Source: an uncultured Clostridia bacterium (GTDB lineage Bacteria; Bacillota; Clostridia; Christensenellales; Borkfalkiaceae). Taken from it: a stretch of 61,243 nt of DNA. Position numbers and translations under genes: made by a program. A model generated the notes under the pieces. The model did not search any database. It saw nothing but the letters and a program-made list of their open reading frames with translations, and was not told the origin of the DNA. Of the stretch, positions 29,782 through 39,856 are shown one piece after another. The stretch is taken from contig CALVWX010000009.1 in NCBI GenBank assembly GCA_944368215.1, positions 1-61,243 on the forward strand, written 5' to 3'. Each line of letters starts with the position of its first letter. Position 1 is the first letter of the stretch.

Positions 29782-29810
29782 TTGACATAAATCAGTTAAA
29801 CTGATAAAAT
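29782..29810 (+). promoter_or_regulatory. Promoter of the FMN-repeat lipoprotein with a palindrome in its spacer
   Basis: TTGACA (29782-29787), 17 nt, TAAAAT (29805-29810). The spacer is almost filled by ATCAGTT-A-AACTGAT (29791-29805), a perfect inverted repeat well placed for a repressor. It does not match the Fur or Rex consensus that I know. Confidence 0.7.
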
Positions 29811-29832: not shown

Positions 29833-31803
29833 ATGAAGACTAAAAAGATTTTAAAAATAACAGCGGCCGCCTGCCTTGCAGGCGCTCTCCTTTCGGGTAG
29901 CTTAGCCGTTGCCGGATGCGGCTGGACTACGCAGACGGTGGAAGGCGAGTATCATTACACTAATTACGGCGTCGATTACGGCGTAAAAGTCAACGTCGAA
30001 ATTCAGACTGATGACAAGGGCGACCGTATCCGCAAAGTAACCATCGCAGACAGCGAATACAAACAGCTCTCCGACGCCAATCCCGATTATGGCTGGACGG
30101 ACGAAAACAGACAAAACTACCTCGACAATGAGCAGTCTTTGCTCAATGCCTACCGCGGCCTGTACGTCGCCGACGTGCTCGCGATGACGGCTTCAACCAA
30201 TGCCGCGGGCGAACCTTCGTCCGTATCCGACAGTGCGGTAGTAATTTCCGGCGCGACACAGAGCTCGGGCAGGCTTCTTCTTGCCGTGCAGGACGCTCTC
30301 AAGCAGTTCGGTTACAGCGTCTGCGAGGGCGAATACAGCTACCTCAATCCATGGTCGCCTTCCTCGCGCTACGGTATTGCAGTAAAGGTAATTTTAAAGG
30401 GCGATACAATCGCCAAAGTCGTCACGGTCGACAGCGCTTACGAGGAAGTTTCTTCGGGCTGGGAAGATAAAAATATATGGACGAGCGGTCTCGCGGGTCT
30501 TCTTGAATCATACGCAGGCAAAACGCGCAGCGAAATTCTCGCCGTCAACGTCACAACCGACGCAAACGGTCAGCCTTCCGCCGTTTCCGATGCAACTTAT
30601 GTAATCACGGGCGCAACTCAGGGCTCGGGCAGGCTCATGCTCGCCGTCCAGAACGCCCTCCGCACGGACGGTCAGGCCGTCGGTACCGTTTACGAAGGCG
30701 AATATCATTACACAAACTACGGCACTGAATACGGCGTAAAAGTTAATGTCACTGTCAACGGCGGCGTAATAACAAAGGTTGCCATTGCCGACAGCGATTA
30801 CACCCAGCTTTCGCCCGCCAACCCCGATTATGGCTGGACGGACGAAAACAGGCAGAATTATCTCGACAACGAAGATAAGTTGCTCGCCGCGTATATGGAT
30901 AAAACTGTGGGAGAGGTACTAGCCATGTCGGTCACAACAAACGACAACGGCGAACCTTCGGGCGTATCGGACAGCTCAGTTTTACTCTCCGGCGCAACGC
31001 AGAGTTCGGGCAGGTTGCTTCTTGCCGTTCAGAACGCTCTCTCCAAGATAGAAGGCTACAGCGTCTGTGAAGGCGAATATCATTACACAAATTACGGGGT
31101 AGATTACGGCGTAAAGGTAAAGGTTGCCCTGCAGGGCGACACAATCATGGGTCTTGCAATTGCGCCCAGCTCCTATACCCAGCTTTCGCCCGCCAATCCC
31201 GACTACGGCTGGACGGACGAAAACAGGCAGAACTATCTCGACAACGAAGCATCGCTCCTCAAAGCCTATATCGGTAAAAACGTGCAGGATGTGCTTTTAA
31301 TGTCTGTTACTACAAACGACAACGGCGAACCTTCGTCCGTATCCGATGATTCGGTTATAATATCGGGTGCAACGCAAAGTTCGGGCAGGTTGCTTTTAGC
31401 TGTTCAGAATGCAATTTCCTCGCTTGGCAACTATCAGCTCTGCGAGGGCGAATATAGTTATACAAATTATGGAACGCAGTACGGCGTAAAGGTAAAGGTG
31501 CTCGTGCAAGATGGTGCTATAGTCAAAGTTGCAATCGCGCCCAGCTCTTATACTCAGCTTTCACCCGCCAACCCCGACTACGGCTGGACGGACGAAAACA
31601 GGCAGAATTACCTTAATAACGAGCAATCGCTTCTCAATGCCTACAGCGGCAAAAAGGTGCAGGATATTCTTGCTATGTCTGTTGCAACCGACAATATCGG
31701 TCAGCCTACTTCTGTATCTGACAGCTCGCTTTTAATATCGGGCGCGACACAGAGTTCCGGCAGGCTTCTTCTGGCCGTACAGAACGCCCTCGGCAAGCTC
31801 TAA
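29833..31803 (+). CDS. Lipoprotein with five tandem FMN-binding domains
   Basis: 656 aa from ATG 29833 (AGGAG upstream). The in-frame ATG at 29812 would fall at the transcription start and is rejected. The signal peptide ends in AVAGC, with Cys29 lipidated. Five FMN-bind repeats of 115-128 residues follow, each ending in the covalent flavin motif SGATQSSGR (TGATQGSGR in repeat 2). The acceptor threonines are expected at 142, 262, 389, 514 and 639. Repeats 1, 3, 4 and 5 share NPDYGWTDENRQNYL, while repeat 2 has diverged. ApbE, encoded next, would attach FMN by a phosphoester bond. Role by inference: a surface electron carrier, like the flavinylated lipoprotein PplA of Listeria but with five rather than two sites. 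Confidence 0.9.
   Translation: MKTKKILKITAAACLAGALLSGSLAVAGCGWTTQTVEGEYHYTNYGVDYGVKVNVEIQTDDKGDRIRKVTIADSEYKQLSDANPDYGWTDENRQNYLDNEQSLLNAYRGLYVADVLAMTASTNAAGEPSSVSDSAVVISGATQSSGRLLLAVQDALKQFGYSVCEGEYSYLNPWSPSSRYGIAVKVILKGDTIAKVVTVDSAYEEVSSGWEDKNIWTSGLAGLLESYAGKTRSEILAVNVTTDANGQPSAVSDATYVITGATQGSGRLMLAVQNALRTDGQAVGTVYEGEYHYTNYGTEYGVKVNVTVNGGVITKVAIADSDYTQLSPANPDYGWTDENRQNYLDNEDKLLAAYMDKTVGEVLAMSVTTNDNGEPSGVSDSSVLLSGATQSSGRLLLAVQNALSKIEGYSVCEGEYHYTNYGVDYGVKVKVALQGDTIMGLAIAPSSYTQLSPANPDYGWTDENRQNYLDNEASLLKAYIGKNVQDVLLMSVTTNDNGEPSSVSDDSVIISGATQSSGRLLLAVQNAISSLGNYQLCEGEYSYTNYGTQYGVKVKVLVQDGAIVKVAIAPSSYTQLSPANPDYGWTDENRQNYLNNEQSLLNAYSGKKVQDILAMSVATDNIGQPTSVSDSSLLISGATQSSGRLLLAVQNALGKL
29941..31803 (+). 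repeat. Five tandem in-frame repeats of 369-384 bp encoding FMN domains
   Basis: Units start at 29941, 30325, 30694, 31069 and 31444 at codons for EGEY. Spacings are 384, 369, 375 and 375 bp, all multiples of three. Units 3, 4 and 5 are closest to each other at DNA level, for example around the codons for PDYGWTDENRQN, which suggests recent expansion or gene conversion. Confidence 0.85.
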
Positions 31804-31829
31804 ATTAAAATTTTAATAAAATAATCACG

Positions 31830-31847
31830 GCCCGCCGCGCGGCGGGC
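31830..31847 (+). terminator. GC palindrome between the FMN lipoprotein and apbE
   Basis: 18-bp perfect palindrome of G and C only, followed by TTGATTTATG. It directly abuts the -35 box of the apbE promoter, so it may end the first transcript just before the second starts. Confidence 0.5.
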
Positions 31848-31876
31848 TTGATTTATGCCTTTTAAATCTATATAAT
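31848..31876 (+). promoter_or_regulatory. Promoter giving a probable leaderless apbE mRNA
   Basis: TTGATT (31848-31853), 17 nt, TATAAT (31871-31876), then 6 nt and the ATG, with no ribosome binding site. It has the same geometry as the XRE gene promoter. Confidence 0.65.
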
Positions 31877-31882
31877 ATATCT

Positions 31883-33118
31883 ATGAAAAAAATGCTTGCT
31901 GTTGCGGCAGCTTTTGCCGCCGCGTGTATAATGGCTCTGCCCGCATGCAATAATTCAGGGCATGGCAACGGGGGAGATTATTCCTCGCTGGCGAGATACT
32001 ACAATAAATTCGACACCGTCGCAACGCTCGTCGTCACGGCGGATTTTACTAACTCCGAGAACACCGAAAAGCTCTCAAATCTCGGTGCCGCCGTAGAAAA
32101 TTTTCTCACCGGGCTCGAAAACAGCCTCTCCACAACCGTTGCAACTTCGTGCATTTCGCGCTTCAACGCGGCCGCCGCGGGAGAAGAGGTGCCCTTGGAC
32201 GAGCTCACCTATACCGTCCTCTCCGAGGCCGTCGCAATGTACGAATATACCGACGGGTATTACAATCCCGCCGTCTACTACAGCGTCGATTTATTCGGTT
32301 TTTCGCCCCGCTTCAACGACCTTACGTGGAGCGCTTCGCTCCCCGCGCAGCCTTACGACAGACTGTCCGAGGACGGCACTTATGTGACCGCCCTGGCGGA
32401 ACCCGACGAACGCTATGTGGAGCTCTTCAAAGACCTCGCCTCGCACATGTCCGAGCTTGAAATTTACGAGCGCGACGGCGCTTACTACGCGCTCAAGCCC
32501 GATTACACCGTAACTGGCCCCAACGGCGACTCTTACACGCTCGCCCTCGACCTCGGCGGAATAGGCAAGGGCTACGCCGCCGACGTTGTCACCTCGATGA
32601 TGGAGGAGTACGGTTTCGAATACGGCTTCTTCGATTTCGGCTCGTCCTCTGTCTCTGCAAGACAGTCGTACGAGGGTGAAGACGGAAAGTGGGAACTCAA
32701 CCTCGTCAACCCCGACTCGTCGTTATCCGGCACATATGCGCGGGTGTATGTGTCCTCCGCGTCGCTCTCCACCAGCGGCGACTACGAAAAATGTTACACC
32801 CTCGGCGATGCAACTTATTGCCACATCATCGACCCGTTCACGGGCAGGCCTAAATCAATAGGCATAGCCGCATGCACGGTAATCGGCGGCACGGCCGCGC
32901 GCGACGACGCGCTTACAACCGCCCTCAGCGTAATGGGCGAGGAGAAGGCCGTGCAGTTCATAAACGATAATTTAAAAGATTATCAGGTCGTTATGATAGT
33001 CCGCGGTGATGACGGTCCCTGCGACCATGTCGTCACCAACGTTGAAAATCTCGAATACAACCCGGCATATACCCTCGGCAATACAATCGACGGTCAGGGC
33101 AATATAGTGCTCAATTAA
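31883..33118 (+). CDS. apbE: FAD:protein FMN transferase (ApbE), lipoprotein
   Basis: 411 aa with a signal peptide and lipobox LPAC (Cys22), so it is anchored outside the membrane. It transfers FMN from FAD to a Thr or Ser in (S/T)GAT-type motifs. Family landmarks are LDLGGIGKGYAAD, the catalytic-core stretch HIIDPFTGRP and the metal-binding ARDDALTTALSVMG. Its targets are at hand: the five-repeat lipoprotein just upstream, RnfG and RnfD. The NusG-II gene begins 4 nt after its stop. This copy has a variable N-terminal ~60 residues. Confidence 0.94.
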   Translation: MKKMLAVAAAFAAACIMALPACNNSGHGNGGDYSSLARYYNKFDTVATLVVTADFTNSENTEKLSNLGAAVENFLTGLENSLSTTVATSCISRFNAAAAGEEVPLDELTYTVLSEAVAMYEYTDGYYNPAVYYSVDLFGFSPRFNDLTWSASLPAQPYDRLSEDGTYVTALAEPDERYVELFKDLASHMSELEIYERDGAYYALKPDYTVTGPNGDSYTLALDLGGIGKGYAADVVTSMMEEYGFEYGFFDFGSSSVSARQSYEGEDGKWELNLVNPDSSLSGTYARVYVSSASLSTSGDYEKCYTLGDATYCHIIDPFTGRPKSIGIAACTVIGGTAARDDALTTALSVMGEEKAVQFINDNLKDYQVVMIVRGDDGPCDHVVTNVENLEYNPAYTLGNTIDGQGNIVLN

Positions 33119-33122
33119 AATA

Positions 33123-33605
33123 ATGTCTCAAAAAAAGGTAGAACAAGTAAAGGCCGATAAGGGCTTCAGAATATGGGATTTAGCCGTCTACGCGGCGCTT
33201 ATTGCGCTTATTGTCGCGCTCTTCATCGCGTTTGTCTTCACGCGCGATTCCTCGCCTCTCACCTCTGTTTCCGTCTCCATCGGCTTCGGCGAAGAACAGC
33301 GCACTGTCTGCACTTATAACTTTACAACGCAGTCGTTAAACGTAATCGACGACAGCGTCATTACGGTAAATTATCCCGAAGACGGCGGCATAGAACTGAC
33401 CTTCCACGGCGAAGGGGAGGGAGAGGAGAATATAATTTTCATCGATACCCGCAATGTCAGCGTTTCGGTCACGCAGGCAAATTGTCCCGCGCTCGACTGC
33501 GTCTATACCGCTGCCATAACAAACAATTCGTCCCTTCCCATAATATGTTCCACCCACCGCATGATAATCCGCCCAGACCACGTCAGCGGTTCGGTAATAC
33601 AATAA
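33123..33605 (+). CDS. NusG domain II-containing membrane-anchored protein
   Basis: 160 aa. A basic N-terminus and one TM helix (about 22-43) are followed by an external NusG-II domain (PF07009 type). It keeps the pattern of conserved Cys residues NCPALDC ... PIICSTHRM that could form a disulfide or bind a cofactor. Such proteins are regularly encoded beside ApbE, Gx transporters and flavin-binding proteins, which suggests a role in extracytosolic redox chemistry; the biochemical function is unproven. Same transcript as apbE. Confidence 0.88.
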   Translation: MSQKKVEQVKADKGFRIWDLAVYAALIALIVALFIAFVFTRDSSPLTSVSVSIGFGEEQRTVCTYNFTTQSLNVIDDSVITVNYPEDGGIELTFHGEGEGEENIIFIDTRNVSVSVTQANCPALDCVYTAAITNNSSLPIICSTHRMIIRPDHVSGSVIQ

Positions 33606-33621
33606 AGGTTATAAATAATAC

Positions 33622-33656
33622 GGGCGCCGCGCAAAACTTTGCGCGGCGCCCTTTTT
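33622..33656 (+). terminator. Terminator of the apbE-nusG-II unit
   Basis: 14-bp perfect stem (33622-33635 with 33638-33651) followed by TTTTT. Confidence 0.88.
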
Positions 33657-33717: not shown

Positions 33718-34551
33718 TTATCTTTCAAGTATTATGTGTCTGGGGCAGACGGCCACGCAGGTCTTGCAACCCGTGCACTTTTCGTAATCGAAAACAGGCA
33801 GGTTGTCTACCATGGTGATCGCGCCGTGGGGGCACTTTCTCGCGCAGGCGCCGCAGCCTATGCAGCCCACTTTGCAGGCGTTCATAACTTCCTTTGCCTT
33901 GCAGTGCGAAGAGCATGCAACGTATACGGGCGCGTCGGCGGGTATGCGCTCTATAATGTGCTTGGGACACGCCAGAATGCATGCGCCGCAGTTGATGCAT
34001 TTGTCGGGGTCCACTTTGGCCAGTCTGTTCTCAACGTCTATCGCGCCTTCGGGACATACATTCTTGCAGTCGCCGCAGCCGAGGCAGGCGTATTTGCATA
34101 CTTTATTGCCGTCGAAAAGGGTGGAGCACGCCGCGCACGTCTGGCTGCCGTTGTATTCAAACGCGTCCGCCGCGTTGAGCGCGCCGCCGTTGCACTTTAC
34201 AATCGCAACCTGCGGCTGTTCTTGTTTGAGTTCCACGCCGAGCAGCGCTGCAATTTCCGCCTTCTTTTCCGGCGAGGTTACGTGGCAGGCCGAAAGATCG
34301 CCGCTGCCGTCTGCAAGTTTTGCGGCAAAGCCCGCGCAGCCGCTGCATCCGCAACCGCCGCAGTTGGCGCCGGCAAGGTTTTCAAGTATCTTGGTAACCT
34401 TTTCGTCCATGTTTACTTTAAAAACTTTGCCTACGACAAGTATGGCGATTACAATCACAAGGGCTATGCCGAAGAGTATGCCCGCAACAATTCCTACAGT
34501 TGTCCACGTGTCGGCGGTTATTGCGCCGAGCGAGGCTAATAAATTAAACAT
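33718..34551 (-). CDS. rnfB: Rnf complex subunit B, ferredoxin-like
   Basis: 277 aa. An N-terminal TM helix (about 15-40) anchors it. Next comes the RnfB cluster motif CGGCGCSGCAGFA, and then several ferredoxin-type motifs, CLGCGDCKNVCP, CINCGACILACP, CIGCGACARKCP and CTGCKTCVAVCP. It receives electrons from reduced ferredoxin on the cytoplasmic side and passes them into the Rnf chain. The last gene of rnfCDGEAB, 15 nt after rnfA. Confidence 0.96.
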   Translation of the reverse strand: MFNLLASLGAITADTWTTVGIVAGILFGIALVIVIAILVVGKVFKVNMDEKVTKILENLAGANCGGCGCSGCAGFAAKLADGSGDLSACHVTSPEKKAEIAALLGVELKQEQPQVAIVKCNGGALNAADAFEYNGSQTCAACSTLFDGNKVCKYACLGCGDCKNVCPEGAIDVENRLAKVDPDKCINCGACILACPKHIIERIPADAPVYVACSSHCKAKEVMNACKVGCIGCGACARKCPHGAITMVDNLPVFDYEKCTGCKTCVAVCPRHIILER

Positions 34552-34566: not shown

Positions 34567-35172
34567 TTATGCAATATAGGTGAATACCATAAACGCCATG
34601 CATATCAGCGAGGCCGTCACCATCGAAATGGGGAACCCGTTGAGGTATTTGGCAATCTTCACATTGTTCAGTTTTTCGCGCATGCCGCTCATTATAACCA
34701 TTATGAGCGTAAAGCCGAGGCCTGCGAACAGCGAATACAGCACCGCCCAGCCGAAGTTAACGGCAGCGCCGCCCAGAAGTCCGGCCATTGCCGTCTTGTC
34801 TATAACCAGTTCGCAAACGCCTAAAACGGCGCAGTTTGTGGTTATAAGGGGCAGGTATACACCCATGGCGTTGTACAGCGAGGGCGAAAGCTTTTGTATT
34901 ATCTTCTCAAGCATCTGCACAAGCGAAGCTATTATAAAGATGAATACGATAATTTCAAGGAATGCAAAGTTCAGGGGCACCATCACATATTCGTAAATGG
35001 GCCACGTAACCGCTGCGGCCAGCGCCATAACCACCGTTACGGCCACGCCCATGCCGAGTGCGGAAGAAGTCTTTTTGGAAACGCCCAAAAACGGGCAAAT
35101 ACCCAGCGTCTGCACCGTTATAAAGTTATTGGTGAGCACTGCGGAAAGTACCATTGCAATAAAAGTAGCCAT
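34567..35172 (-). CDS. rnfA: Rnf complex subunit A
   Basis: 201 aa, six TM helices. The landmark TNNFITVQTLGICPFLGVSKK includes the Cys that, with RnfE, is thought to hold an intramembrane iron-sulfur cluster. It is an inverted-topology homologue of RnfE. The start overlaps the rnfE stop by one base. Confidence 0.96.
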   Translation of the reverse strand: MATFIAMVLSAVLTNNFITVQTLGICPFLGVSKKTSSALGMGVAVTVVMALAAAVTWPIYEYVMVPLNFAFLEIIVFIFIIASLVQMLEKIIQKLSPSLYNAMGVYLPLITTNCAVLGVCELVIDKTAMAGLLGGAAVNFGWAVLYSLFAGLGFTLIMVIMSGMREKLNNVKIAKYLNGFPISMVTASLICMAFMVFTYIA

Positions 35173-35840
35173 TATGCCTTGACCTCCTCGGCCTGTGCGC
35201 CATCGTCAAGCATGTTTTCGCGTGCCAGCCTGTTTGCTTTTACGCGCCTTGCGCGCTGGAATGCGTCGATTATCGCGGTGAATGCGCAAATCGAAAGTCC
35301 GAACACTATGAACGCGCCGGCAGGGGTGGAGAACATGCCCACGCTGAAGTCCATTATCTTGAATCCGAACAGACTTCCGCTGCCTATAAATTCGCATATA
35401 ATGCCCATAACCGTCAGAGCCATGGTAAAGCCGATGCCGTTGGCAATGCCGTCCACCGCGCTCTCTAAAACGGTGTGTTTGTTTGCAAAGGCTTCCGCCC
35501 TGCCGAGAATAATGCAGTTAACTACAATAAGCGCCAGCAGGTTGCCCAATGCTTCGTAAACGTCGGGCAGGAATTTGTCCAGCACCATTCTTATCAACGT
35601 TACAAGCGTGGCAATAACCACTATATAGCAAGGTATGCGCACTTCGTTGGGAATGAGCTTTCTCAGCGCCGAAATAATCATGTTGCTCAGAGTCAGTATT
35701 ACTATAACGGCAAGTCCCATTTCCAGCGCGGGAAGGGCGGAGGAGATGAGCCCCAGCGTCGGGCAGGTGCCCAGCACCAGCATGAACGTGGGGTTGTTGA
35801 AAATAATGCCGTCCAGAGTTATCTTTTTATACTTGTTCAT
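35172..35840 (-). CDS. rnfE: Rnf complex subunit E
   Basis: 222 aa, six TM helices. It has the subunit E marks NPTFMLVLGTCPTLGLISSA and VVNCIILGRAEAFA. It pairs with RnfA around the membrane cluster. A 30-residue charged C-terminal tail (RRVKANRLARENMLDDGAQ) is cytoplasmic. It overlaps rnfG and rnfA by one base each, so translation is coupled. Confidence 0.96.
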   Translation of the reverse strand: MNKYKKITLDGIIFNNPTFMLVLGTCPTLGLISSALPALEMGLAVIVILTLSNMIISALRKLIPNEVRIPCYIVVIATLVTLIRMVLDKFLPDVYEALGNLLALIVVNCIILGRAEAFANKHTVLESAVDGIANGIGFTMALTVMGIICEFIGSGSLFGFKIMDFSVGMFSTPAGAFIVFGLSICAFTAIIDAFQRARRVKANRLARENMLDDGAQAEEVKA

Positions 35841-36835: not shown

Positions 36836-37876
36836 TTATTTGCCCTCCTTTGCCTTCTTTTCGCGCCTGTAGCCGAAGGGCCTTCTCACAATATAAGTAT
36901 CGATGAGGGGCACTATAAGGTTCACTATCATTATCACGAAGGAAACGACTTCTATCTTGGTGTAGAACCTTAAAAGCGACGTCAGCACCGCAAGCAATAC
37001 ATAGTAAACTATCTGTCCGTATATACCCTTGGGCGAAGTTACGTAATCCGTCGCCATAAATATCGCGCCGAACATCAGCCCGCCGGAAAGAGCATAGTCA
37101 ACGAAAAGCGAAATATCAAAGCTTGCGCCCTCCGCAGTCGCCGCCATGCATACCGAAAGGAATGCCGAAAGCACTACGTACAGGAGGGGCTGCCACCACT
37201 TGATTACCTGCCTTGCGACGAGGTATATATAGCCTATTAAAAGCGCCAGCTTGCATGTTTCGCCTATGCATCCCGCAAGGCCCGTGCCGAGGAATAAATC
37301 AAGCCAGTCCATTCTGGCGCCCGACTGTCCTCCCAGCAGCCATCCCGAAAGGTGCGTCGCACCGGTGAACAGCTGGCTGTCAAGGCTGATGGGTTCAAAG
37401 TTTGTGGCGATGTAAGTGGTAAGGGTAAAGCTCAAAAACATCATTACCCTGCCCGCCGCGGCGGGGTTTACAAGATTTCTGCCCGTGCCGCCGAAGATCA
37501 TCTTTACGATGATTATGGCGAACATCGCGCCTATTAGTATTTCGTACCAGTTAACCGTCGAAGGCACTATAAGCGCAAGTACGAGGCCGGTCACCACCGA
37601 CGTGAAGTCGAACTGCTTGAGCCAGTTTACGCACACGTCCTTTGCCTTGGCGCACTTCTTTGTGAATCCGCCGTTATATATAAAGTAATATACGAACTCC
37701 GAAGCCACTGCGGCGAGTATGGAAGTTATAATCAGAACAAACGCCTGCACGCCGAAAAAGACTATGCCCGCAATCGTCGCGGGGAGAAGGGCGATTATTA
37801 CGTCGAGCATTATGCTCTTGGTCGTCCTGCGCGATTTTACGTGGGGAGGCGTAGAAACAACAATAGTATTATCCAT
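36836..37876 (-). CDS. rnfD: Rnf complex subunit D
   Basis: 346 aa integral membrane subunit with about nine TM helices. The covalent FMN motif is FTGATHLSGW, with Thr174 as acceptor. GGTGRNLVNPAAAGRVMMF is another family landmark. With RnfG it links the flavins to ion translocation (Na+ or H+; not decidable here). GGAGG precedes the ATG, 15 nt after rnfC. Confidence 0.96.
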   Translation of the reverse strand: MDNTIVVSTPPHVKSRRTTKSIMLDVIIALLPATIAGIVFFGVQAFVLIITSILAAVASEFVYYFIYNGGFTKKCAKAKDVCVNWLKQFDFTSVVTGLVLALIVPSTVNWYEILIGAMFAIIIVKMIFGGTGRNLVNPAAAGRVMMFLSFTLTTYIATNFEPISLDSQLFTGATHLSGWLLGGQSGARMDWLDLFLGTGLAGCIGETCKLALLIGYIYLVARQVIKWWQPLLYVVLSAFLSVCMAATAEGASFDISLFVDYALSGGLMFGAIFMATDYVTSPKGIYGQIVYYVLLAVLTSLLRFYTKIEVVSFVIMIVNLIVPLIDTYIVRRPFGYRREKKAKEGK

Positions 37877-37891
37877 TTTCTTTTACCTCCT

Positions 37892-39190
37892 TCAGTTCTT
37901 TTTGGCGCGTATCGCGGCCTTGGTCTTTCTTATGGCCTGAATAAGCGGCCTTCTCGCGGGGCACACGTATTCGCACGCGCCGCACTCTATGCAGTACATG
38001 GTGTTGCCCAGTTTTGCCGCCGTCTCGAAATCTCCCGCAGAGGAGTAAAAGGCCGTCTGCATTGGCATCAGATGCATGGGGCACACGTCCGCGCACTTGC
38101 CGCAGTTCAGGCAGGGGGTGGGGGCAAGGCAGTCCGCTTCCTTTGCCGTCATAAGCAGCACTCCGCCCGTCGTTTTGCCGATGTAATTGTCGTAACCCGT
38201 CGCGGCAACGCCCGTCATGGGGCCGCCGTCTACAATTTTCTTGGGCTCGGTGCCTTCGCCGCCGCAATATTCTATGATGTCTTTAATGCACGTGCCCACC
38301 TTCACCCAAAGGTTCTTGGGCTCTTTTACGGCTCTGCCGGAAACGGTTATTTCCCTTTCATACAGCGGCTTGCCGAGTTCTATCGCCTGACATATTGCGT
38401 ACGTCGTGCCTACGTTGTGGACTATAACGCCCACGTCGGCCGGAAGTTGCCCGGCATGCACCTTTCTTCCCGTGCAGGAATATATTATGTGCTTTTCGCT
38501 TCCCTGAGGGTAGCTCTTTGCAAGGCGTACAACCTTTACGTCGTCGTATTTTTCAAAGGCGGCTATGCAGTCTGGCTTGTTTTTTTCAATGCCAATAATT
38601 ATGGCCGCTCCGCCCAGCGCCTTGGCAATATACCTCGCGCCGCGCACAATGTCGTCGGTGTGCTCAATCATCAGCCTGTGGTCGCAGGTCAGATAGGGTT
38701 CGCACTCCGCGCCGTTGAGTATCAGCGTGTCCACGCTGCACTTGGGCGCGTCCTTTACCGCCGCGGTGAATCCCGCGCCGCCCAGACCTACAATTCCCGC
38801 CTGTCCGATTCTCTCTGTAATCTCCTCGGCGGAAGGCTCTGCAAGGGGGGTAAGATACTCTTTTTCCCCGCTTCCGTCCGACGCAATGACTATAAACGTC
38901 TGCTCGTCGCCCGCGGCCGAAGGCATTTTAACAATGCCCGTGACCTCGCCCGCAACGCTCGCAAAGACGTTTGATGAAATCGCGCCGTCGGCCTTTGCAA
39001 TCAGTTGGCCTTCCTTAACTTTTTGTCCCACCTCAACGCAGGGCAGCGCGGGTCGCCCCGCCGACTGCTGTGTGGAGATGCGCACTTCGGAAGGCTCGGG
39101 AAGCACTTCAGTGGGCTTGTCGCACGTCAGAGCCTTTTCGTCCCTCAGTCGCACGCCGCCGAAGAAGATTTTTCCTTTAACAGCTTTCAA
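37892..39190 (-). CDS. rnfC: Rnf complex subunit C
   Basis: Peripheral subunit holding the NAD(H)-reacting FMN site and two [4Fe-4S] clusters. The Nqo1-like region has GIVGLGGAGFTAAVKD, LILNGAECEPYLTCDHRLM and PTPCLNCGKCADVCP, with a second cluster CIECGACEYVCP near the C-terminus. I place the start at TTG 39190, because GGAGG (39197-39201) then lies 6 nt upstream; a TTG at 39196 would directly touch it. No ATG fits. First gene of rnfCDGEAB. Confidence 0.95.
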   Translation of the reverse strand: MKAVKGKIFFGGVRLRDEKALTCDKPTEVLPEPSEVRISTQQSAGRPALPCVEVGQKVKEGQLIAKADGAISSNVFASVAGEVTGIVKMPSAAGDEQTFIVIASDGSGEKEYLTPLAEPSAEEITERIGQAGIVGLGGAGFTAAVKDAPKCSVDTLILNGAECEPYLTCDHRLMIEHTDDIVRGARYIAKALGGAAIIIGIEKNKPDCIAAFEKYDDVKVVRLAKSYPQGSEKHIIYSCTGRKVHAGQLPADVGVIVHNVGTTYAICQAIELGKPLYEREITVSGRAVKEPKNLWVKVGTCIKDIIEYCGGEGTEPKKIVDGGPMTGVAATGYDNYIGKTTGGVLLMTAKEADCLAPTPCLNCGKCADVCPMHLMPMQTAFYSSAGDFETAAKLGNTMYCIECGACEYVCPARRPLIQAIRKTKAAIRAKKN

Positions 39191-39209
39191 AATCAACCTC
39201 CGGTAATTC

Positions 39210-39292: not shown

Positions 39293-39856
39293 TTATTTGT
39301 CTTCAGTTCCGTTTTTTTTCGGCGGCTTTTGCCCCAGCGCCCGCTCGAATACGGAAAGGGGCACCTTTTTAAAAATAAGCATCACCGCCGCGCCGACTAT
39401 AGCGCCCGAAAGCACCCCTAAAAGCGCCAGATACGGCATGTATGAAAAGACGAGCGGAGTGCCGGAAATTGCAACGAATACCAGATTCTGCACAATATTG
39501 TGCGCCACCGCCGCGACGATGCTCACCGCCATCACAGAAACTCTTGGATAGACAAGGTAAACAAGCAGAGCCGAAATTGCCATCGCCGCAACTCCGCCCG
39601 TAAACGAGTACAAAAGAGAGGATATGTTTCCCGCAAAAAGCGAGCCCAATACAGTCCTCACAACGACTACGGCGAACGCGTCGGCGGGGCCGAACAGTAT
39701 TAGCGCCGCAAGCGAAAATATATTTGAAAGTCCCATCTTCGCCCCCGGGAAAAACAGGGGAGGGAAAAGGCTTTCTATTAAAAATGTAATAAGCCCCAGC
39801 GCCGCAAACAGCGCGTCGGCGGCTATGCGCTTGGCCGCGCCGTTACCTTTTGCCAT
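39293..39856 (-). CDS. Gx transporter family protein (heptaprenyl diphosphate synthase component I-like)
   Basis: 187 aa, about five TM helices, S-component-like. It has the PF07456 landmarks FFPGAKMGLSNIFSLAALILFGP and VVVVRTVLGSLFAG. The family is named after component I of heptaprenyl diphosphate synthase but is more likely a small-molecule (possibly redox cofactor) transporter. It commonly neighbours ApbE, NusG-II and Rnf genes, as here. There is no ribosome binding site, and the -10 box sits 9 nt before the ATG. Confidence 0.87.
   Translation of the reverse strand: MAKGNGAAKRIAADALFAALGLITFLIESLFPPLFFPGAKMGLSNIFSLAALILFGPADAFAVVVVRTVLGSLFAGNISSLLYSFTGGVAAMAISALLVYLVYPRVSVMAVSIVAAVAHNIVQNLVFVAISGTPLVFSYMPYLALLGVLSGAIVGAAVMLIFKKVPLSVFERALGQKPPKKNGTEDK

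Follow-up and report, generated by a model that had tools for sequence, protein, structure and literature searches.

A lipoprotein with five FMN_bind-like repeats beside the rnf genes of a Clostridia bacterium, and the number of its candidate flavin sites within one genus

The window analysed here is a 61,243-nucleotide stretch of DNA from an uncultured Clostridia bacterium (Christensenellales, Borkfalkiaceae; assembly GCA_944368215.1, contig CALVWX010000009.1), which encodes, next to an apbE gene and facing the rnf genes, a lipoprotein made of five tandem FMN_bind-like repeats (Table 1). All five repeats keep the residues that hold a covalent flavin mononucleotide (FMN) in solved domains, and the number of such sites ranges from one to nine within one genus, often at the same gene neighbourhood. 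The reading that fits these data best, and that we consider likely, is that the lipoprotein is secreted and anchored, and relays electrons received from Rnf along its flavins.

Repeat anatomy and flavin-site residues

A first-pass annotation of the sequence had described a surface lipoprotein of 656 residues with five covalent-FMN repeats. Its coordinates, its length and the five threonines were borne out by our reading, and the signal sequence and the lipobox of the protein support a surface position, pointing to an extracytosolic location; of the 55 open reading frames (ORFs) from the window and its relatives whose 5' end is complete, 49 matched the lipobox pattern. The repeats are 119-128 residues long, with the GAT motif close to the end of each. 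Repeats 1, 3, 4 and 5 are 70-75% identical to one another, repeat 2 shares 47-49% identity with each of those, and five copies at such identity are, on the evidence of the sequence, not due to chance. The whole protein matched Pfam FMN_bind (PF04205) with an E-value of 3e-17 and 63.4 bits (cut-off 22), one stretch passing alone; when scored singly, repeat 1 passed (27.6 bits) and repeats 2-5 fell below the cut-off (16.8-19.1 bits; E 0.0021-0.011). A family profile search of the genome returned five matches, all within the lipoprotein gene. A lone cysteine (Cys164, Cys412 and Cys537) ends repeats 1, 3 and 4, at domain joints.

The following lines of evidence suggest that an FMN would be attached to the threonine of every repeat. 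First, the [S/T]GA[S/T] flavinylation site is present in the five repeats. Second, the flavin of the solved domain SaFMN3-D2 is borne by Thr72 and stacked by Tyr14, the corresponding residues of CbFMN4-D1 being Thr67 and Tyr11 (PMC10339131; papers are cited by accession, from excerpts of their texts), and a profile alignment placed the threonine and the YG tyrosine of the repeats exactly on these residues, as counted by hand in the printed alignment, the matches being weak (E 0.44 and 0.31). Third, the threonine, the flavin-stacking-type tyrosine and a tryptophan, which we guess to lie over the opposite flavin face, are all kept in the five repeats. Fourth, these residues are widely kept in a set of 116 domains from 49 sources, window included, which was drawn from 41 sources and ten of 17 further loci by retaining the domains with more than 75 matched profile positions (shorter pieces and the other seven loci were left out). 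The threonine column comprises 112 Thr, two Ser, one Lys and one gap, and the tryptophan column 114 Trp and two gaps. The third domains of L037 and L081 (L and G numbers designate loci and genomes, respectively) have neither the Trp nor a Thr/Ser, and are also two of the four domains failing the Arg column, which makes them dead domains. Because the same two domains fail the Trp, Thr and Arg columns, it appears that the site residues are kept together, and lost together where they are lost.

Three observations weigh against a chain of five flavins. First, the Asp of the ApbE motif D-x-x-[S/T]-G-A-[S/T], which is called strictly conserved (PMC12052999), is found six residues before the modified threonine (position -6) in none of the five repeats, which have hydrophobic or aromatic residues there. 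Second, this Asp occurs at only one of the 114 Thr/Ser sites of the domain set. Third, the full-length structure model had a pTM of 0.58, so that the relative placement of the domains is uncertain. Regarding the proposed covalent-FMN sites, the annotation was right in that the residues match those of solved covalent-FMN domains, and it had missed the absence of the Asp. This absence, together with the presence of the Asp in SaFMN3-D2, CbFMN4-D1 and the solved RnfD and NqrB, could mean that the changed motif makes some sites poor substrates or non-substrates of ApbE, the repeats serving mainly as spacers. We regard this as quite improbable, since the Thr, Tyr and Trp are kept, the replacement of the Asp by Ala has only minor effects (PMC12052999), and the RnfG and RnfD of the window genome are both devoid of the Asp, like the solved RnfG 7zc6_G as aligned. 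The same holds for most sites in 30 RnfD loci of the order (L132-L161, the 30 best-matching from 171 genomes with a match), where the Asp was seen at two of 23 RnfD sites (the 23 including an apparently spurious one) and two of 36 RnfG sites, the pattern having found no site in eight of 30 RnfD and four of 29 RnfG ORFs. A genus-specific shift of ApbE specificity, which the missing Asp might also have indicated, is weakened by these RnfD and RnfG sites and by 7zc6_G.

Other changes at the motif occur in relatives. Five of the six repeats of the protein encoded at L076:9998-12388 read EGAT, with Glu replacing Ser/Thr at position -3. The single-domain orthologues of L053, L054, L056 and L069 have Asp, Lys or Asn in place of the GAT Gly, and retain the Thr.

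Repeat 3, when modelled singly, reached a pLDDT of 92.3. In the full-length model, about 2-8 residues separate the last helix of one domain from the first strand of the next one; the modelling of repeat packing that the annotation had suggested has thus produced five domains with short gaps, and an uncertain mutual placement. A Foldseek search with the whole protein yielded nothing at E 0.001 or better, the best rows being unrelated, and phmmer searches of the PDB with the lipoprotein and with RnfG alone gave no match. For the profile A2, which included signal peptides, weak matches to its first ~50 positions were set aside. These models bear on another reading, in which the flavins, having nearly equal potentials, are not a wire and operate as an electron store, buffering electrons or serving as a docking array for the reduction of soluble shuttles, where additional copies increase capacity and not reach. 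It would be consistent with the single potential (-184 mV) reported for the three flavins of SaFMN3 (PMC10339131), with the identity among repeats 1, 3, 4 and 5, which makes similar potentials likely, and with the uncertain domain placement. We find it rather unlikely, however, as the short modelled gaps, which differ from the flexible linkers of SaFMN3 and CbFMN4, suit neighbour-to-neighbour transfer, and as the different type of repeat 2 leaves a single uniform pool uncertain.

Copy number and history of the repeats

The protein was matched in 40 of 101 genomes, namely the window's own and 100 relatives. The region was taken from 37 of the 39 other matching genomes (all except G004 and G049) and from 17 of 36 loci of named records, the remaining 19 being duplicates of genomes already included. 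Across the genus, matches to the domain profile were obtained in 55 of 93 genomes, and at least five domain hits were counted in 12 of them, the window's own included; in these counts a single domain is in some cases hit in parts, and diverged domains escape the profile. Sites were counted by pattern in 59 ORFs, of which nine are cut by contig ends and a few do not belong to the genus. The highest number in whole ORFs is nine (L039 and L040), followed by eight, seven and six; five sites occur in the window, in its nearest relative G001 and in L081, and a single site in 33 of the 50 whole ORFs. In these counts L063 is one too high and L038 perhaps one too low, and the apparently whole ORF of L035 belongs to a split gene. 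The contigs of G026 (L034, L035), G036 (L041, L042) and G038 (L043, L044) end inside the array, so that their counts are lower bounds. The orthologues of L050, L064 and L048, of about 400 residues, have a differing C-terminal half that contains a GATW motif.

The number of sites, one to nine, varies within one genus and often at the same place: wherever there was room on the contig, an ABC/FtsX gene was found upstream in 41 of 52 cases, apbE downstream in 39 of 50 and an opposite-strand rnfB in 24 of 36, the misses including loci outside the genus, the two- to five-site genes of L045, L046, L047 and L081, and L033, where the miss reflects an overlap of stop-to-stop ORFs. We found no such within-genus series in the literature searched, including the excerpts of PMC8238504 and PMC11334425.

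As the annotation had stated, repeat 2 is devoid of the NPDYGWTDENRQNYL stretch; its view that this stretch has been lost is probably wrong, since the repeat clusters with second domains from other species, and the domain tree and the type leaning of extra copies led us to reject a loss as the likelier history. In this tree, which has few columns and a bootstrap that is not settled, one clade (99/99) holds the first domain of each of 11 multi-domain proteins, window included; a less well supported fork (88/82) unites 13 second domains, window included, with five later copies; the first domains of L045, L046, L076 and L081 stand in another group (91/75); and later domains are mostly not matched up between species. 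In the window and G001, domains 3-5 are 66-74% identical to domain 1 and 47-51% to domain 2. Elsewhere, 29 of 34 extra copies (the cut array of L042 being left out) are nearer to the second, short-type domain of their own protein, often by a small margin, the others being domain 3 of L033, L036 and L047, domain 6 of L039 and domain 4 of L081. Because of this grouping and this leaning, we read the window array as A-B-A-A-A, in which type B is probably not a worn-down type A. Several independent gains of copies are suggested by the pairing of copies within one protein (L090, L047 and L089). In a FastTree tree of GltX and ApbE, of mixed support and used solely for this check, the many-site species do not all form one clade, L076 and L081 being apart.

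This history would also be compatible with a copy number that mostly drifts neutrally by unequal crossing-over in the tandem array, one flavin doing the work and the additional domains riding along. Several observations point in that direction, namely the one to nine copies between species, the adjacent copies that are up to 90% identical (a sign of recent duplication or exchange), the absence of one-to-one partners of repeats 4 and 5 in the nearest relative (68-71% identity to each of its type A domains), and the two dead domains. Nevertheless, the Thr/Ser is kept in 114 of the 116 domains, including all five here, and neutral copies would be expected to lose the site more often; we therefore judge drift unlikely. 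It is possible, and we put this forward tentatively, that the flavin number is an evolvable dial, selection changing the chain length, at a locus conserved within a single gut genus, by duplicating type A (the anchor-side one) or type B, thereby matching the reach or potential profile to the envelope or the acceptor.

Gene neighbourhood and a possible Rnf-fed relay

Table 1. Features of the window around the five-repeat lipoprotein gene
Feature	Position	Strand	Remarks
ABC/FtsX fusion, 967 aa	26784-29687	+	upstream neighbour of the flavin gene
Promoter-like site TTGACA-17-TAAAAT	29782..29810	+	11 of 12, extended TG; consensus match only; 7 found vs mean 3.7 in region shuffles
Lipoprotein with five FMN_bind-like repeats, 656 aa	29833..31803	+	lipobox VAGC, Cys29
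Repeat 1, type A (long)	29941..30324	+	Tyr49, Trp88, Thr142
Repeat 2, type B (short)	30325..30693	+	Tyr180, Trp210, Thr262
Repeat 3, type A	30694..31068	+	Tyr300, Trp335, Thr389
Repeat 4, type A	31069..31443	+	Tyr425, Trp460, Thr514
Repeat 5, type A	31444..31800	+	Tyr550, Trp585, Thr639
GC-rich hairpin between lipoprotein gene and apbE	31829..31848	+	consensus match only
ApbE	31883..33118	+	begins 79 bases past the lipoprotein gene
NusG_II-like protein	33123..33605	+	PF07009, 25.6 bits, below 29.6 cut-off; 4 bases past apbE; NusG_II taken to be the EetA family, the protein thus presumably EetA-like
Terminator-like hairpin, 13 pairs, both strands	33622..33651	.	between convergent units; consensus match only
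rnfB	33718..34551	-	
rnfA (Rnf-Nqr membrane subunit)	34567..35172	-	presumed, by gene order
rnfE (Rnf-Nqr membrane subunit)	35172..35840	-	presumed, by gene order
rnfG, 331 aa	35840..36835	-	by position; two GAT motifs (STGATFSL, AIGATRSN)
rnfD	36836..37876	-	FTGATHLSG site
rnfC	37892..39196	-	
PF07456 protein (EetB family)	39293..39856	-	

The rnf genes and the PF07456 gene are convergent to the unit formed by the lipoprotein, apbE and NusG_II-like genes, within which the GC-rich hairpin may be a weak terminator or a processing site. ApbE and PF07456 have one match each in the genome. The catalytic Ser, His and Asp of ApbE align with those of 6nxi_A, which were equated with Ser241, His257 and Asp285 of Vc_ApbE through a constant numbering offset counted by hand. 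PF07456 is the family of EetB, the FAD-binding export subunit that Listeria needs to export flavin for flavinylation; eetB adjoins Rnf in 572 Clostridia genomes, and the deletion of eetA has no phenotype (PMC9973259). An EcfT-type subunit is encoded elsewhere in the window genome.

Regarding the electron donor, we found no match to the UbiA family (DmkA, demethylmenaquinone synthesis) in the genome, which is ~92% complete (controls, 14 of 14), so that Rnf is the probable donor rather than a quinone. The RnfG of the window has no FMN_bind match in Pfam; its first half aligns weakly with the RnfG 7zc6_G (E 0.47), and its second half is extra. The second GAT motif of this RnfG has Ile in place of Ser/Thr, and two motifs also occur in several RnfGs of the genus. 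A 646-residue RnfG-like ORF with four TGAT sites lies at L089:16915-18852. As for the outside acceptor, a fumarate-reductase-like protein was rejected: FAD_binding_2 has seven matches in the genome, and the sole full-length one adjoins a NadC-like gene and looks like NadB.

From these elements, we propose the following pathway. The protein would be secreted as a lipoprotein, tethered to the membrane at Cys29 and exposed at the surface. FAD would be exported by the PF07456/NusG_II transporter module, and in each of the five domains ApbE would attach one FMN to the threonine. Reduced ferredoxin or NADH would feed electrons into Rnf; these would exit through the outward-facing flavins of RnfG, for which there are two candidate sites, and be passed down the chain of five flavins to an acceptor outside the cell, possibly ferric iron, a soluble quinone or flavin, or a further surface protein.

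Relation to known multi-flavin proteins

The likeness to PplA-type systems proposed by the annotation, with ApbE and Rnf as neighbours, is supported by the genes of the locus. Similarly to the PplA/FLEET locus of Listeria, Enterococcus and Lactiplantibacillus, the window combines a flavinylated-type surface protein with ApbE (FmnB), EetB-family and EetA-like proteins. PplA has two sites, versus five here, and the donor of FLEET is Ndh2 with demethylmenaquinone, whereas the window locus has Rnf and its genome no UbiA (no search for Ndh2 was made). Unlike RnfG and NqrC, the lipoprotein is encoded on the strand opposite to the rnf genes, the Rnf's own RnfG being a separate gene of the locus.

Similarly to SaFMN3 and CbFMN4 (PMC10339131; 8p2a, 8p2b), which are three- and four-FMN members that have been purified, the lipoprotein has tandem FMN domains, an ApbE neighbour, and a Thr and a stacking Tyr at matching positions. 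SaFMN3 and CbFMN4 have three and four domains of more than 80% identity joined by flexible linkers, the two solved domains being cut at 84-88 residues, whereas the window protein has five longer repeats of two domain types, separated by short gaps and without the Asp at -6. More generally, multi-flavinylated proteins have more than one FMN-binding domain, are extracytosolic and are often clustered with transmembrane electron-transfer systems, as is the case here, and 'beads on a string' models have been drawn for them (PMC8238504, PMC11334425). The database check on five-repeat proteins beside rnf, which the annotation had suggested, is largely in print as a survey that counted 2081 multi-FMN proteins across 1530 genomes, with as many as 13 sites, and that describes multi-flavinylated RnfGs in RNF clusters (PMC8238504); the excerpt on this survey gives no frequency of five sites beside rnf. 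That survey covers distant genomes, unlike the present series, which lies within a genus. The repeats of the window protein, moreover, mostly score below the Pfam cut-off when taken singly.

Together, these data place the lipoprotein in a class that is already known (PMC8238504, PMC11334425, PMC10339131), the new point being the within-genus length series. The function of multi-flavinylated proteins is open in print, where they are called 'functionally uncharacterized', and related versions that have one to nine sites within a genus, and frequently share their gene neighbourhood, would allow a direct test of whether more flavins provide reach, capacity or nothing. If the flavin number is indeed an evolvable dial, the genus would provide a natural range of chain lengths on which flavin-based wires could be tested.
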